A stretch of DNA of 45,019 nucleotides. Origin: a virus. Position numbers and translations under genes: made by a program. The notes under the pieces were generated by a model. It was not told the origin of the DNA and made no database searches. It worked only from the letters and a program-made list of their open reading frames with translations. Position 1 is the stretch's first letter. Each line of letters opens with the position of its first letter. Location: positions 1 to 45,019 of the IMG/VR virus record IMGVR_UViG_3300048687_000028, one strand, 5' to 3'. This document shows positions 19,139 to 25,548 of this stretch, in pieces.

Positions 19139-19169
19139 GGGCCGAGGCGCTTGGAGGGCGCCCCGGCCC
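19139..19169 (+). terminator. Hairpin between nuclease and primase genes
   Basis: GGGCCGAGGCGC (19139-19150) pairs with GCGCCCCGGCCC (19158-19169) through 12 bp with one A/C mismatch around a 7-base loop. There is no following T-run, so it may be an attenuator or mRNA-processing/stability element rather than a classical terminator. Confidence 0.45.
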
Positions 19170-19204
19170 GATCTGAACCTTGGAAAAGAAGGCTGCAGAC
19201 CACT

Positions 19205-21442
19205 ATGGACACAGATAACCGGACCCAGCTGCGACTGCAACTGCTCGCGCTGGGCTATGAGCCCATCCCCAACGTCGGCAAAATTCCCGCGCTGCATGGC
19301 TGGAACGCGCCGGACTACCTCAAGCGCGAGCTGGCCAAATATGGCAACGCCCACGAGATCATCGCCTCGTGGGAGCGGCGCTTTCCCCAGGCGCTGTCGA
19401 CCGGGGTGCGGCTGACCAAGGGGCTCGGCTCGATCGACGCTGACATCGACGAGGAGCGCCTGGCCGATGCGTTCTGGGACTGCCTCGAGCAAGTCGCGCC
19501 GGACGTTGCCGAGAGAGCGCCGCGGCGCTTCGGCGGCGGCACGCACAAGGTGGCGCTGTTCGTGCAGGTCAAGGGCGAGCAGTGGGTCCGCCTCGCCTCG
19601 CGCAGCTATGGCGGTCACAAGCTAGAGATATTCGGCGGCGCCGCACTGTCGGGCGGGCGCGTCTCGCGCCAGTTCGGCATGGCCGGCCCACATAGCGAGG
19701 GGGTGAGCTACCTATTCGCGACCGGCGTTCCTCACCTCGACACGATCGGCCTGCGCGAGCTGATAGGGCTGACGCGGGCAGAGGCGGCGGCGCTGATCGA
19801 CGCCTTCGACGCGGCGGCGGTGCGCTTGGGCTTTGTCGCCGACACGCGCCACGACGAGGCGGCGGGCGCCGAGGAGGCGTTCGACATCACGCCGGAGGCG
19901 GTGTTTTCGATCGATGACGGCGAGGCTGCGAGCTATGACGATCTGGCGGGCCTGATCGGGCGGCGCTGCGCCTCGTCGTTCATCCCGGGTGATACCGGGC
20001 ATAACCGGACCAAGTGCTGGATCTTCTGGTCGGCGCGACATGACTGTGTCGGGGTGTATGACTTCGAGACGACGGTGCGACACTATCCGGCCGCGCTCGC
20101 GCCGGTCGAGCCGGCGGCGTTCGCCGAGAAGCTGGCCGAGACAGCCGCGCTGCACGGGGTGATCATCCCGCCGGGGGTGCCGCTGTGGCGCGAGATTTAC
20201 CCGAACGGGTCGCCGCGCGCCTCGCTGCACAATGCCTGCGTGGCGCTCGAGGCGGGCGGCTTTGTCGGGTCGTATGATGTGTTTCACAACAAGATGTTCC
20301 TCGGACGCGGCGAGGCGGCGGACGTGCGCGCGGCGTTGCCGCCGTTTTGCGGCGAGGTGACGGACAACCGCATCGCGCTGCTGCGGCGCTGGGTGTCGGA
20401 CACATACGGGCGCGACTTCACCGAGAAGCATGTGCGCGATGCGGTGATCGTCTCGGCGCTGGCGCATTCATTCAATCCGGTCACTGACATGCTGGCGGAG
20501 GCGGAGGCGGCGTGGGACGGCACGCCGCGGCTCGATCGCCTGGCCTGTGACTTCTTCGGCTGCGCGGACACGCCGCTCAATCGCGCCATGGCGCGCAAGA
20601 CGCTGATCGCGGCGGTGGCGCGCGCACGGCGACCAGGCTGCAAGTTCGACACCATCCTGGTGCTGGAGGGGCCGGAGGGGTGGAACAAGTCCTCGGCCTG
20701 GGCGGTGCTGGCCGGCGAGGGCAACTTCTCGGACGAGCGGATCATCGGGCGCGACAGTCGCGAGGTGGTCGAGCAGCTGGCCGGCATCTGGATCCACGAG
20801 AACGCGGACCTCGCCGGCATGCGCAAGGCCGAGGTCGAGACGGTCAAGGCGTATGCCTCGCGCCAGGTCGATCGGGCGCGGCCGGCTTACGCGCGCTTCT
20901 TGGTCGAGCAGCCGCGCCACTCGATCGAGGTGGGGACGACCAACAACGACGAGTACCTGCAGGCGCAGACCGGTAACCGGCGCTTTTGGCCGATGCGGCT
21001 GGAGCGGCGGATCGACTTGGGTGCCTTGCGCGCGGCGCGACTGCAGCTGTGGGGCGAGGCAGCCGCGGCTGACACGAGCGGAGAGAGCCTGGTGCTCGAC
21101 GAGGCGCTATGGGGCGTGGCCGCGATCGAGCAGGAGGCGCGGCGAGTGCGCGACCCATGGGAGGAGGCACTGGCGAGGCTGTCGCCGGTCGGCGCGCGCG
21201 ATAGCATATTGGCCGGCGTCGGGATGGTCGGGTTTGGTATCGTACAAGTTGCAGGGGATGAGTGGCGGGTTGCGACAAAAGACATCTTCCAGGTCGCACT
21301 GGGCATGCCGGCGCACATATTGGACGACCGGCACACCAAGCGACTGGCGAACGCGATGCGGGCGCTGGGATGGACAAGAGGGGTGATCAGGTTTGAAGAC
21401 GGCGTGGCGCGAGGGTATCGACGTAAGGCGAACGGTGCGTGA
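19205..21442 (+). CDS. PrimPol-VapE primase-helicase
   Basis: 745 aa from ATG 19205 (the 18-residue upstream extension is not credible). The N-terminal domain (about residues 10-190) looks like a phage PrimPol: YEPIPNVGKIPALHGWN, TGVRLTKGLGSIDADID with Asp78/Asp80, and a later GGHKLEIFGG. The C-terminal half is a VapE-type AAA/SF3-like ATPase: ILVLEGPEGWNKSSAWAVLA with the Walker A lysine near residue 494, then GIWIHENADLAGM, then GTTNNDEYLQAQTGNRRFWP. It probably primes and unwinds for the PolA encoded on the other strand. Walker A has Asn before the Lys where Gly is usual. The stop lies in the loop of a hairpin at 21431-21450. Confidence 0.9.
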   Translation: MDTDNRTQLRLQLLALGYEPIPNVGKIPALHGWNAPDYLKRELAKYGNAHEIIASWERRFPQALSTGVRLTKGLGSIDADIDEERLADAFWDCLEQVAPDVAERAPRRFGGGTHKVALFVQVKGEQWVRLASRSYGGHKLEIFGGAALSGGRVSRQFGMAGPHSEGVSYLFATGVPHLDTIGLRELIGLTRAEAAALIDAFDAAAVRLGFVADTRHDEAAGAEEAFDITPEAVFSIDDGEAASYDDLAGLIGRRCASSFIPGDTGHNRTKCWIFWSARHDCVGVYDFETTVRHYPAALAPVEPAAFAEKLAETAALHGVIIPPGVPLWREIYPNGSPRASLHNACVALEAGGFVGSYDVFHNKMFLGRGEAADVRAALPPFCGEVTDNRIALLRRWVSDTYGRDFTEKHVRDAVIVSALAHSFNPVTDMLAEAEAAWDGTPRLDRLACDFFGCADTPLNRAMARKTLIAAVARARRPGCKFDTILVLEGPEGWNKSSAWAVLAGEGNFSDERIIGRDSREVVEQLAGIWIHENADLAGMRKAEVETVKAYASRQVDRARPAYARFLVEQPRHSIEVGTTNNDEYLQAQTGNRRFWPMRLERRIDLGALRAARLQLWGEAAAADTSGESLVLDEALWGVAAIEQEARRVRDPWEEALARLSPVGARDSILAGVGMVGFGIVQVAGDEWRVATKDIFQVALGMPAHILDDRHTKRLANAMRALGWTRGVIRFEDGVARGYRRKANGA

Positions 21443-21450
21443 GCACCGTT
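21431..21450 (+). terminator. Perfect 8-bp hairpin at the primase stop
   Basis: AACGGTGC and GCACCGTT flank GTGA; the stop codon TGA of the primase-helicase lies in the loop. Only GTTGT follows, so termination would be weak. A second small dyad, ACGCG..CGCGT, follows near 21462-21478. Confidence 0.45.
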
Positions 21451-21522
21451 GTATCACGTCGTTACGCGAAACACCGCGTTTCTCAGGAGTCTACGTTTCT
21501 GTCTCTACTACTCTTACTACCT

Positions 21523-21528
21523 TATAAT
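21523..21528 (+). promoter_or_regulatory. Candidate -10 box of a sigma70-like promoter
   Basis: An exact TATAAT lies in a conspicuously AT-rich patch (21490-21570), 41 bases before the ATG at 21569. No good -35 box stands 16-18 bases upstream. The hexamer is overlapped by an imperfect dyad, TTACTACCT..AGGTGTAA, that could be an operator. Confidence 0.45.
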
Positions 21529-21568
21529 AGGTGTAACAGAAGATACAGTATTGAAAAGGAAGGACAAA

Positions 21569-21961
21569 ATGGCGCTACAGGGCCCGTTACGATGCGTTAC
21601 AATGGTGTTATGGCTCGCGCTGGATTATTCGGCCGTCGCGGCGGCGGACAAAATCCAGGACCGACACCCGGCCATGGTGGCGCAGGCCAAGGATACAACC
21701 GTGCACACGTTCGAGGAGCGCTGGGCGCCGGTGCGCGGGTTGTTGTACCGGCAGCAGCTCGGTCACGAGATGCTGGTGCCGCCGCCGCGGGCGGCGCCGC
21801 CGGCGCTGGCGGCGGCGCCACCGGTCGAGGTGACGCCGCTGCCGCCCGAGCGGCCGGTCAAGACGGTGCGGGTGACGATCCGCAAGCCAGACCGGGAGAC
21901 GTGCCTGCGGCACGGTCTTCGGACGGTGTGGAGCGGAGCAAGTTGGAGGTGCAGGCGATGA
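21569..21961 (+). CDS. Small exported protein (130 aa)
   Basis: ATG after GGAAGGAC. The N-terminus MALQGPLRCVTMVLWLALDY then SAVAAADK looks like a signal peptide with cleavage after AVAAA, though its charge pattern is weak. The mature protein has a Pro/Ala-rich middle (PPPRAAPPALAAAPPVEVTP) and a basic, Cys-containing end (CLRHGLRTVW, SWRCRR) that could bind cell-wall or nucleic acid polymers. I do not recognise the family. It is coupled to the next gene (ATGA) and is first after the candidate promoter. Confidence 0.65.
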   Translation: MALQGPLRCVTMVLWLALDYSAVAAADKIQDRHPAMVAQAKDTTVHTFEERWAPVRGLLYRQQLGHEMLVPPPRAAPPALAAAPPVEVTPLPPERPVKTVRVTIRKPDRETCLRHGLRTVWSGASWRCRR

Positions 21962-22323: not shown

Positions 22324-22347
22324 CCTCCGGTGTCCCAACACCGGAGG
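22324..22347 (+). promoter_or_regulatory. Perfect hairpin that buries the ribosome site of the PEP-CTERM gene
   Basis: CCTCCGGTGT and ACACCGGAGG form a perfect 10-bp stem with loop CCCA. The GGAGG at 22343-22347 is the only Shine-Dalgarno sequence for the ATG at 22356 (8 bases away) and is fully paired in the stem. It also sits 7 bases after the previous stop, so it could act as a terminator, but CCTTCCCC follows rather than a T-run. Confidence 0.7.
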
Positions 22348-22355
22348 CCTTCCCC

Positions 22356-23123
22356 ATGCGAAAAGCTATTCTGGCGGCGGCGCTGATCGCGCTCGCCGCT
22401 CCCGCGTATGCACTCGAGTTTGATTTCGGCGGCGGCACTAATCCGCTGCTCGACACTGCGTTTCAGAGCAACGCCAATACGTCCACGCTCACGGTGTCTG
22501 GCCCTGTGCCGGATGGCAACCAGCCGCAGAATATTCAGTGCATTATCTGCGGCACGCATCAACCGCAGCAGGATCTCACGTTCGGCTATAACAACTACAA
22601 GCAGGGGGGAAACATATCGACGTTTGCCACCTCGTCGACCAGCGCGCTCGGCGGCGTGCAGCTCGACAACAATACGCTGGGCGATGGCTATACAAAATTA
22701 TTCTTGTTGGCGTTCCTGGCGGCGACCAACAACTTCAGCCTCAACGTCGGCATCGACGTGAACACGGCCGCGGGCGCTGGGCCGGAGATCCTCGAGCGCT
22801 TCGTGGTGGTCGACCTGGCAAACCATCTGATCCTGGCTGATACCGGGCAGATCCACATGAGCCTGCCGACGCTGAACAACGGCACCGGCTTCCCCGACTA
22901 CACGATCAGCGGCTTCGACATCAATCGGGCCGACATCCTGCCGGGGGCGGAGCTGGCTTTTCTGGCTCGCTGGTCGAACACATCTGACGGTGCCGAGAGC
23001 TTCTTCATCGTTCCGCAGGCAGTGCCGGGGCCGGTCGTGGGCGCGGGTCTGCCGGGCTTGATGGCGGCTTGTGTTGGGCTGTGGGGCCTGGCGCGGCGCC
23101 GGCGGGGTCGGCTGGCCGCCTGA
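22356..23123 (+). CDS. Secreted protein with PEP-CTERM-like (VPGP) sorting signal
   Basis: 255 aa. The N-terminus MRKAILAAALIALAAPAYA is a clean signal peptide with cleavage after Ala19. The C-terminus has VPGP at about 223-226, a hydrophobic helix (VVGAGLPGLMAACVGLWGLA) and RRRR, which is the tripartite PEP-CTERM/VPxP-CTERM signal recognised by exosortases. The body is beta-rich with Asn/Thr repeats (FDFGGGTNPLLDTAFQSNAN) and a Cys pair in QCIICG. No exosortase gene is in this genome, so a host enzyme would be needed. A cell-surface or exopolysaccharide-associated moron protein is the likely role (inference). Confidence 0.85.
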   Translation: MRKAILAAALIALAAPAYALEFDFGGGTNPLLDTAFQSNANTSTLTVSGPVPDGNQPQNIQCIICGTHQPQQDLTFGYNNYKQGGNISTFATSSTSALGGVQLDNNTLGDGYTKLFLLAFLAATNNFSLNVGIDVNTAAGAGPEILERFVVVDLANHLILADTGQIHMSLPTLNNGTGFPDYTISGFDINRADILPGAELAFLARWSNTSDGAESFFIVPQAVPGPVVGAGLPGLMAACVGLWGLARRRRGRLAA

Positions 23124-23267: not shown

Positions 23268-23465
23268 ATGGCCGGGATGAAGGTTGTCAGCATGCTCGAG
23301 CACGAGGTCGCCAAGGCGCGACAGGTGGCGCAGCGTGACTTGGAGCAGCTACAACGTCAGCTGCTCGCGGTCACCACGTCGCTGGCCGACAGCCTGGTGG
23401 CGCTGGCCGATCGGGTGACGGAGTTGGAGCGTAGCGGAACAAACAGAGGACGGGGTGACCCGTAG
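23268..23465 (+). CDS. Short coiled-coil protein (up to 65 aa)
   Basis: Frame with ATGs at 23268, 23277 and 23292; none has a strong ribosome site, so the start is uncertain. The sequence LEHEVAKARQVAQRDLEQLQ then LAVTTSLADSLVALADRVTE is a continuous coiled coil. It overlaps the next gene's GTG start by 11 bases. Small coiled-coil proteins next to terminase genes can be oligomeric packaging partners, but nothing specific is seen. Confidence 0.55.
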   Translation: MAGMKVVSMLEHEVAKARQVAQRDLEQLQRQLLAVTTSLADSLVALADRVTELERSGTNRGRGDP

Positions 23466-23724
23466 ACAAGTGGCTGGAGCACCGACGGAAATTAGGTCAT
23501 GGGCGCGCTCGCATTCCAAAGAGGCGATCCAGACGCTTGCCGGCATTGCGCGCAACGGCAAGCAGGAGGCTGCGCGCGTCGCCGCGGCGACTGCGCTGCT
23601 CGATCGTGGCTGGGGCCGGCCGCCGCAAGCGCACACCGGCGAGAATGGTGAAGGCGATATACGTGTCACCATTAGGCACATCGTCCAGGAGATTAGCGCG
23701 CAAAAGGTCATCGATCATGAGTGA
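23455..23724 (+). CDS. Terminase small subunit candidate
   Basis: 89 aa from a GTG start behind GAGGACGGG. The segment RSWARSHSKEAIQTLAGIAR followed by ARVAAATALLDRGWGRPPQ resembles the DNA-binding N-terminal helices of small proteins encoded before terminase in many phages and prophages. The end, GDIRVTIRHIVQEISAQKV, is beta/helical. The position just before the palindrome-rich region and terL supports recognition of a packaging site. The assignment is by pattern and position. Confidence 0.6.
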   Translation: MTRRQVAGAPTEIRSWARSHSKEAIQTLAGIARNGKQEAARVAAATALLDRGWGRPPQAHTGENGEGDIRVTIRHIVQEISAQKVIDHE

Positions 23725-24053: not shown

Positions 24054-24188
24054 ATGCCGCGCGAGATCTGGTTCGCCCTGCCGCTCAAGCTGCGCCAGCG
24101 CTGGTGGCGCGAGACGGGTTACGGCGCCCGGCCGCCGTCGCCCGAGCTGCTCGCCGCGATCGAGGCCGCCTATGCCGATCGACATTGA
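24054..24188 (+). CDS. Small pre-terminase protein (44 aa)
   Basis: MPREIWFALPLKLRQRWWRE then TGYGARPPSPELLAAIEAAY. AAAGG precedes the ATG by 7 bases, and the 3' end overlaps the terL start by 17 bases. The WFALPL-LRQRWW-ET-YG pattern recurs, as I recall, in small proteins encoded directly before terL in other phages, which supports a real gene. Function unknown. Confidence 0.65.
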   Translation: MPREIWFALPLKLRQRWWRETGYGARPPSPELLAAIEAAYADRH

Positions 24189-25548
24189 GCTGCCCTACAA
24201 TGGCTGGCTGCCGCGGCCGCACCAGGCCGGCCTGTGGCGCTACCTGCAGGGTGGCGGCACCCGCGCCATGGCGGTGTGGCATCGCAGGGCGGGCAAAGAC
24301 GAGATTTGCCTGCATCACGCCGCGGTTAGCATGATGAAGCGTAAGGGAAATTACTGGCATTGCTTACCCGAATATTCACAGGCCAGGAAGGCGATCTGGA
24401 CCGCGGTCAACCCGCACACCGGGCGCCGGCGGATCGACGAGGCCTTCCCCGAAGCGCTGCGCGAGAACACCAACGACCACGAGATGTTCATCCGCATGTG
24501 CGGCAGCACATGGCAGCTCATCGGGAGCGACCGCTTTGACGCGACTGTTGGCTCAGGTGTTGCGGGCATTACTTACTCTGAGTGGGCATTGGCAAACCCC
24601 TCCGCCTGGGCCTACCACAAGCCGATCGTCGAAGAGAACGGCGGCTGGGCGGCGTTCATAACCACACCGCGCGGCAGGAACCATGCGCACGACATGTACA
24701 AGCACGCCAGCCGCACCTCCGGCTGGTTCTGCGAGCGCTTGACCGCGTTGGACACTGGCGCCTTGAGCGCCGAGCGCCTCGACGAAGCGCTGACCGAATA
24801 CCAAGCTTTGTATGGCCAGGACGTCGGCGCGGCCCAGTTCCAGCAGGAGTATATGTGCGACTGGCATGCCGCCATCTTGGGCGCCTTCTACGCCTTCGAG
24901 ATGAAGACGGTGCGCGACGAGCAGCGCGTGACCGAGCAAGCGGTGGCGCTCGAAGGCGTGCCGGTGCATCGCGCCTGGGATCTCGGCGTCGGCGACGACA
25001 CGAGCATCTGGTGGTTTCAGCCGGTCGGCGGCCAGCTCTACATCCTCGATCACTACGCCTCCTCCGGCGTAGGTCTTGAGCACTACGCCGGCGTGATCGA
25101 GGCGCGCCATCACCAATATGGATGGGTCAACGGCGACGACTGGGTGCCACACGATGCGAAAATCAAAGAGTGGGGCAGTGGACGAACCCGTGTGGAGACT
25201 ATGCAGTCGATGGGGTTACGTCCCCTGTTGGTGCCGCATCATTCACTCGATGACGGGATTAACGCCGTCAGGAGAACGCTTCCCCTCTGTGTGTTTCATC
25301 CCCGAACTGAAGAGGGCGGCCTTAGTGCTCTCGAACAGTACAGAAGAGAATGGGACGATGAAAAAAAGTCGTTCCGCGCCAACGCCGTCCACGACTGGAC
25401 GAGCCACCCGGCGGACAGCTTCCGCTACCTGAGCATGGCCTGGCGCAAGGCGCCGCTGCGCAAGGTGAAGCCGCCAGCCAATCCGTTTTTCAGCGGCTGG
25501 GTCATTCCGCCGCCGCCTGATCCCAAGCGTGGAGGGATGCGGCTGTGA
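24172..25548 (+). CDS. terL: Terminase large subunit
   Basis: 458 aa. The ATPase part has Walker A HRRAGKDE at 37-44, Walker B-like GITYSEWA at 132-139 and TTPRGRNH at 164-171. The RNase H-like nuclease part has HRAWDLGVGDDTSIWW with Asp270, VPHDAKIKEWGSGRTR (Asp328) and a C-terminal HDWTSHPADSFRY (Asp415). This is the complete motor and nuclease that cuts and packages DNA through the portal encoded just downstream. The start is supported by GAGG 6 bases before. The stop overlaps the next gene by GTGA. Confidence 0.95.
   Translation: MPIDIELPYNGWLPRPHQAGLWRYLQGGGTRAMAVWHRRAGKDEICLHHAAVSMMKRKGNYWHCLPEYSQARKAIWTAVNPHTGRRRIDEAFPEALRENTNDHEMFIRMCGSTWQLIGSDRFDATVGSGVAGITYSEWALANPSAWAYHKPIVEENGGWAAFITTPRGRNHAHDMYKHASRTSGWFCERLTALDTGALSAERLDEALTEYQALYGQDVGAAQFQQEYMCDWHAAILGAFYAFEMKTVRDEQRVTEQAVALEGVPVHRAWDLGVGDDTSIWWFQPVGGQLYILDHYASSGVGLEHYAGVIEARHHQYGWVNGDDWVPHDAKIKEWGSGRTRVETMQSMGLRPLLVPHHSLDDGINAVRRTLPLCVFHPRTEEGGLSALEQYRREWDDEKKSFRANAVHDWTSHPADSFRYLSMAWRKAPLRKVKPPANPFFSGWVIPPPPDPKRGGMRL

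Follow-up and report, generated by a model that had tools for sequence, protein, structure and literature searches.

Why would a phage encode a protein with a bacterial sorting signal, when the exosortase substrates described so far are proteins encoded on bacterial chromosomes and linked to exopolysaccharide? The question is raised by one gene in the window analyzed here, the entire 45,019 bases of IMG/VR virus record IMGVR_UViG_3300048687_000028. An earlier note on this DNA described a protein with a signal peptide cleaved after Ala19 and a C-terminal VPGP, hydrophobic helix, and RRRR, took this tail for an exosortase signal, and suggested that the phage carries the substrate without the enzyme and would exploit a host exosortase to bring the protein to the cell surface or its vicinity, for instance to mask receptors or to exclude superinfecting phages. 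The parts of the gene and its neighbors are listed in Table 1.

Table 1. Features of the tail gene and its surroundings in the window
Feature	Coordinates	Strand	Basis or position
Whole gene, encoding an exported protein of 255 aa that ends in a sorting-type tail	22356..23123	+	ORF, ATG start
Shine-Dalgarno GGAGG, 8 nt 5' of ATG	22343..22347	+	Sequence
Signal peptide, residues 1-19, predicted cleavage A19/L20	22356..22412	+	Sequence; AF2 helix 3-12
Core, residues 20-222, all-beta, conserved ICGT, NNY, NNG-GFPDY, and DGAESFF motifs	22413..23021	+	Alignments; AF2
Tail signature VPGPVVGAGLPG, residues 223-234	23022..23057	+	Tail pattern matches and comparison of unique tails
Tail hydrophobic helix, residues 229-246	23040..23093	+	Sequence; AF2 helix 233-254
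Tail basic cluster RRRR, residues 247-250	23094..23105	+	Sequence
VapE-type helicase/primase	19151-21442		Neighbor of tail gene
Possible small terminase	23455-23724		Neighbor of tail gene
TerL	24172-25548		Neighbor of tail gene

The description of the protein proved accurate. The N terminus (MRKAILAAALIALAAPAYA) is predicted to act as a Sec signal peptide cleaved at an A-Y-A site, in agreement with cleavage after Ala19, and the tail (residues 223 to 255, VPGPVVGAGLPGLMAACVGLWGLARRRRGRLAA) is laid out as VPGPVVGAGLPGL, a hydrophobic stretch, and RRRR. Compared with the definition of PEP-CTERM proteins, the protein has the N-terminal signal peptide and the C-terminal transmembrane helix (GAGLPGLMAACVGLWGLA) followed by a basic cluster, but VPGP takes the place of the Pro-Glu-Pro signature. 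The AF2 model (mean pLDDT, 79) places most of the core at 75 to 93 and gives it a beta-rich, beta-sandwich fold. The core sequence matches no Pfam, NCBIfam, or PHROG family, and the fold has no PDB match at an E value of ≤0.001. Between the window and its nearest relative (L007), the dN/dS of the core is ∼0.16 (dN, 0.20; dS, 1.24), and it ranges from 0.06 to 0.14 among other family members, for the pairs with computable dS. The window gene and its family members are under strong purifying selection and hence represent a real coding gene. Immediately upstream, a perfect 10-bp inverted repeat, CCTCCGGTGT-CCCA-ACACCGGAGG (window 22324-22347, plus strand), pairs with the Shine-Dalgarno sequence of the tail gene (RNA fold z-score, -3.7). 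That such a hairpin is common to tail genes was rejected, as it is missing in the nearest relative and is not enriched at tail genes.

The earlier note had named the lack of a match to PEP-CTERM or VPxP-CTERM profiles as one of two outcomes that would refute its reading of the tail, and formally this outcome was obtained: neither the window protein nor its last 36 residues matched any Pfam or NCBIfam model, permissive E values included. In particular, the VPLPA-CTERM, PEPxxWA-CTERM, GlyGly-CTERM, and MYXO-CTERM models of NCBIfam gave no match at an E value of ≤10, and the curated cutoffs of TIGR02595 and PF07589 were reached neither by the protein nor by its tail. A tblastn search with the 34-aa tail alone found no match in plasmids or phages, but low-complexity filtering was on and makes this result uninformative. 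Taken alone, the missing profile match would count against a sorting tail; it is outweighed, however, by homologs with true PEP-CTERM tails.

Such homologs came from IMG/VR, where a single-sequence scan yielded 6 relatives and an alignment scan yielded 22 viral contigs, with cores 32 to 78% (mostly 43 to 57%) identical to that of the window. None were found among INPHARED phages, PLSDB plasmids, and GTDB genomes, the genome scans relying on short exact peptide patterns that distant relatives may escape. The C termini of the homologs differ in type, comprising VPEPASLAVLGTGLLGLGMVKRRRR, TPEPMSLALMGVGLLGLGFVRR, TPIPGAVWLFASGLGGLGLLLRRRKR, another sequence, and the VPGP-GAGLPG type of the window. 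Most of the 22 carry canonical PEP-CTERM tails above the curated cutoffs, and the others have PEPxxWA, VPLPA-like, or window-type tails. The PEP motif is present in L009-L019, L021, L023, L024, L026, and L027; both TIGR02595 and PF07589 exceed their curated cutoffs in L002, L003, L004, and L006 (46 to 57% identity), and PEPxxWA-CTERM (NF035944) does so in L024, with VPLPA/PEPxxWA-type tails in L193 and L022 falling below cutoff. When whole records were searched, PF07589 exceeded its cutoff in 13 of 22 virus records (two such proteins each in 2 of the 13) and in none of 14 control genomes. These matches to PF07589 and TIGR02595 therefore demonstrate that environmental phages encode canonical PEP-CTERM proteins, and the window protein is a homolog of these with a different tail.

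Because the same cores are found in different phages with canonical PEP-CTERM, PEPxxWA, VPLPA-like, or VPGP-GAGLPG tails, one core can be said to carry interchangeable tails. On a quick tree of the family-0 cores, built after removal of the signal peptide and tail from a sampling that favored the pattern, the tail type switches 5 or more times (the lowest number possible being 3), and the pair that includes the window sits among PEP-tailed rows.

The window tail belongs to a recurrent class that was defined in the present analysis by VPxPxxGAG(L/I)PG, a hydrophobic stretch, a basic cluster, a signal peptide, and unrelated cores, all of which the window protein displays. IMG/VR was scanned with a 35-base DNA pattern that encodes V-P-x-P-x-x-G-A-G-(L/I/M)-P-G. 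The pattern matched at least 120 viral contig stretches, and among the matches listed, 135 of 137 were in frame within 50 residues of the C terminus of an ORF. The full pattern had no match in seven alphaproteobacterial plasmids totaling 5.4 Mb, and a shortened pattern, reversed but not complemented as a control, had none in 50 virus records. Given this C-terminal placement and the empty controls, the pattern exceeds chance. BLAST clustering of the matches listed distributed the tails over ∼18 core groups, the largest having 57, 27, 11, 9, 6, and 4 members, with the window protein in the group of 57. According to a loose regular expression applied to the matches listed, 122 of 123 tailed proteins have a hydrophobic N terminus and, after it, an AxA-like cleavage site. 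Two tails occur in 11 of 36 records with C-terminal tails (shortened-pattern scan), and no VPGP-GAGLPG match is present in G003-G014, whose tails are of the PEP or PEPxxWA type. A Trp-rich subtype of the tail, sought in isolate prophages, was found in metagenome contigs only.

Conservation within the tails bears on whether they are anything other than anchors. A signal peptide, a C-terminal helix, and RRRR suffice for a type I anchor, and a protein held in this way would remain on the periplasmic side of the inner membrane, where it could, for example, block DNA entry by a second phage. A generic anchor would need no fixed signature, yet at positions that the search pattern left free, the 108 unique tails show G at position 3 in 88, L at position 13 in 86, and A at position 16 in 77. 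Together with the alternation of these tails with true PEP-CTERM, this makes a simple anchor quite unlikely. In the same set, basic residues are conserved at positions 25 to 28, no tail has an acidic residue before the basic cluster (108/108), and 105 have at least 3 basic residues among the last 15. Cys occupies position 17, within an AAC in the middle of the hydrophobic stretch, in 52 of the 108, the window included.

Tails of the window type are also found on proteins of curated PEP-CTERM families. For example, two phage proteins (L052 and L149) are full-length matches to the cistern family PEP-CTERM model (NF033947; 131 and 119 bits against a cutoff of 60), and a third (L147) belongs to the DVUA0089 family (NF038127; 144 bits against a cutoff of 29). 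Core family-4 proteins, with the same tail, resemble the FxDxF PEP-CTERM family below its cutoff. An 80.6-kb record (G030) encodes two paralogous proteins of core family 1, one with the VPGP-GAGLPG tail and the other with a PEPxxWA-type tail that scores 17.9 bits against TIGR02595 (cutoff, 16) and 31.8 against PEPxxWA (cutoff, 35). Such paralogs with two sorting tails (G030:C1; L066 7520, minus strand, and L193) might point to a host with two enzymes or to two hosts.

Similarity at the DNA level indicates how the tails may come to be shared. The tail DNA of L081 and L121 is 96% identical even though their cores are unrelated (22% amino acid identity), that of L047 and L034 is 85% identical, and, overall, tail DNA identities of 96%, 88%, and 85% were observed between cores at 22 to 26% amino acid identity. 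In another pair (L105 and L142), the signal-peptide DNA is 91% and the tail DNA 84% identical, with cores at 39%. Because near-identical tail DNA occurs on unrelated cores, the tail, and sometimes the leader, is exchanged as a module. In bacteria, likewise, one sorting tail can be replaced by another on one protein family, and tripartite tails are served by unrelated enzymes (PMC3237569).

The latter point raises the alternative that the VPGP-GAGLPG tail is a signal not for an exosortase but for another host enzyme, either a rhombosortase- or myxosortase-like intramembrane protease or one that is undescribed. The signature is Gly rich rather than PEP and matches no profile, and interchangeability on one protein family is what is seen for tails with unrelated enzymes (PMC3237569). 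We nevertheless consider this alternative unlikely: the motif starts with VPxP, as PEP and VPLPA tails do, and the tail takes the place of PEP tails both on the same cores and in curated PEP-CTERM families. Of what the earlier note claimed for the tail, the sorting-type character stands, on the strength of the PEP-CTERM tails of homologs and the curated families, whereas the window tail itself lacks a PEP-CTERM or VPxP-CTERM profile match.

The genomic setting argues that these genes are cargo. A location close to terminase is seen in the window and in some relatives only; across many unrelated contigs, tail genes adjoin differing neighbors, including terminase, portal, prohead, polymerase, and integrase genes. 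Moreover, cores that are ∼50% identical are found in phages whose polymerase and terminase are only 27 to 31% identical. Similar cores in diverged phages, combined with varied neighbors, identify the tail genes, as judged by sequence comparison, as mobile cargo and not as core genes of the phages. In one record (L128 1177-1842, minus strand), a window-type tail gene lies between lysozyme-like and integrase-like genes, as read from their translations, which suggests that temperate phages too carry such cargo. Directly upstream of the window tail gene (window 21443-21961, plus strand) is a gene for a small, apparently exported protein with the C terminus CLRHGLRTVWSGASWRCRR; of 146 scanned sequences, 8 contain its motif, C-x-RH-(G/N/H)...(S/T)W(R/K)C(R/K), and a tail gene does not always adjoin.

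These observations also weigh on the possibility that the tail genes are bacterial surface-protein genes, acquired by accident or through assembly contamination, with no function in the phage. Some cores do fall in bacterial families (cistern and DVUA0089), but the location of the genes among phage genes in many unrelated contigs, the strong purifying selection, and the lack of any detected GTDB relative of the window core family leave this explanation very improbable and already disfavored.

The window TerL is 61% identical to those of Rhizobium phage RHph_I3_18 and Bradyrhizobium phage ppBjS10J-1, and for this reason a Hyphomicrobiales host is likely. Similar tails probably occur on Bradyrhizobium chromosomal proteins. 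In the two phages, no such gene is listed in the annotated regions around TerL, and the tail pattern is absent from their whole records.

No PF09721 exosortase was detected in the window record or in 50 other virus records (most of them probably incomplete genomes), and none was present in the seven alphaproteobacterial plasmids. Within these 51 virus records, phages encode the substrate without an exosortase, which bears out the corresponding claim for the 45-kb record, itself perhaps incomplete. The combined evidence is best read as phages supplying substrates, of an uncurated tail class, to an exosortase-type enzyme of the host. The window gene, specifically, is probably phage cargo for a secreted envelope protein that uses the exosortase-type sorting pathway of the host. 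Against this reading stand the VPGP in place of Pro-Glu-Pro, the missing match to a curated model, and the negative outcome of looking for bacteria with this tail or its enzyme, in that GTDB scans with the core gave no hit and the seven plasmids lacked both the tail and PF09721.

Under this preferred reading, the window protein would be exported through Sec by means of its signal peptide and held in the inner membrane by the VPGP-GAGLPG helix and RRRR, with the motif on the periplasmic face. An exosortase-family enzyme of the host would then cut at or near VPGP and pass the core outward, probably to the outer membrane or exopolysaccharide. Outward delivery by a host enzyme is drawn by analogy with the proposal of Haft and colleagues that PEP-CTERM proteins leave the cytoplasm through Sec, are retained by their tails with the motif at the periplasmic face, and are cut by exosortase (PMC1569441). 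The tail would serve as an exchangeable address label, one that presumably fits the sorting enzyme available in the host. Our best guess is that the surface core might change the envelope or receptor access of the infected cell, so that further phages adsorb less; alternatively, it might affect exopolysaccharide or biofilm. More broadly, environmental phages may possess a set of mobile secreted envelope proteins, with cores that switch between tails matched to host enzymes and with VPGP-GAGLPG as an uncataloged class, that remodel the cell surface, a tentative generalization that falls somewhat short of probable.

The cores are beta domains of a secreted type, and some of them give hints of function. 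The models of family-1 cores are jelly rolls, for which the first Foldseek match is the flagellar sheath protein FlaA1, with carbohydrate-binding modules next (E values, 1e-4 to 5e-3; TM-scores, ≤0.47). This modeled fold is weakly compatible with glycan binding. Core family 5 (L073 11032, plus strand, L070, L107, and L091) contains WC(L/V)D ... QLAIW motifs reminiscent of the Cys-Gln thioester domains of adhesins, an assignment that was dropped as no Pfam or PDB sequence match was found.

In the open-access papers searched, no description of exosortase substrates encoded by phages turned up. Phages appear to borrow the protein-sorting enzymes of their hosts. If they encode substrates without the enzyme, they would rely on host protein sorting while infecting, and the tail type, if the reading is true, could help to predict the hosts of uncultured phages. 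The many natural swaps of tails on cores that stay constant make it directly testable which enzyme reads which tail, and the uncurated tail class merits a model of its own.

Several known systems can be compared with the phage proteins. GlyGly-CTERM, the rhombosortase substrate signal (TIGR03501; PMC3237569), is likewise a tripartite tail with a Gly-containing motif; however, its model is not matched, and the phage motif starts with VPxP rather than being of the Ser-Gly-Gly type. PEPxxWA-CTERM (NF035944) and VPLPA-CTERM (TIGR03370) are curated variant tails that are present on the same phage core families, although the window tail matches neither model. The cistern PEP-CTERM (NF033947) and DVUA0089 (NF038127) families include phage members by cutoff (L052, L149, and L147), whereas the window core is in neither. 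Finally, the PEP-CTERM/EpsH system (TIGR02595, PF07589, and PF09721; PMC1569441) differs in that the window protein is phage encoded without the enzyme, with the motif VPGP-xx-GAG(L/I)PG and a tail that no profile matches. The two are nonetheless alike in the signal peptide, the motif-helix-basic tail, and divergent cores without known homology, and viral homologs of the same core bear true PEP-CTERM tails, some phages encoding several in one genome.
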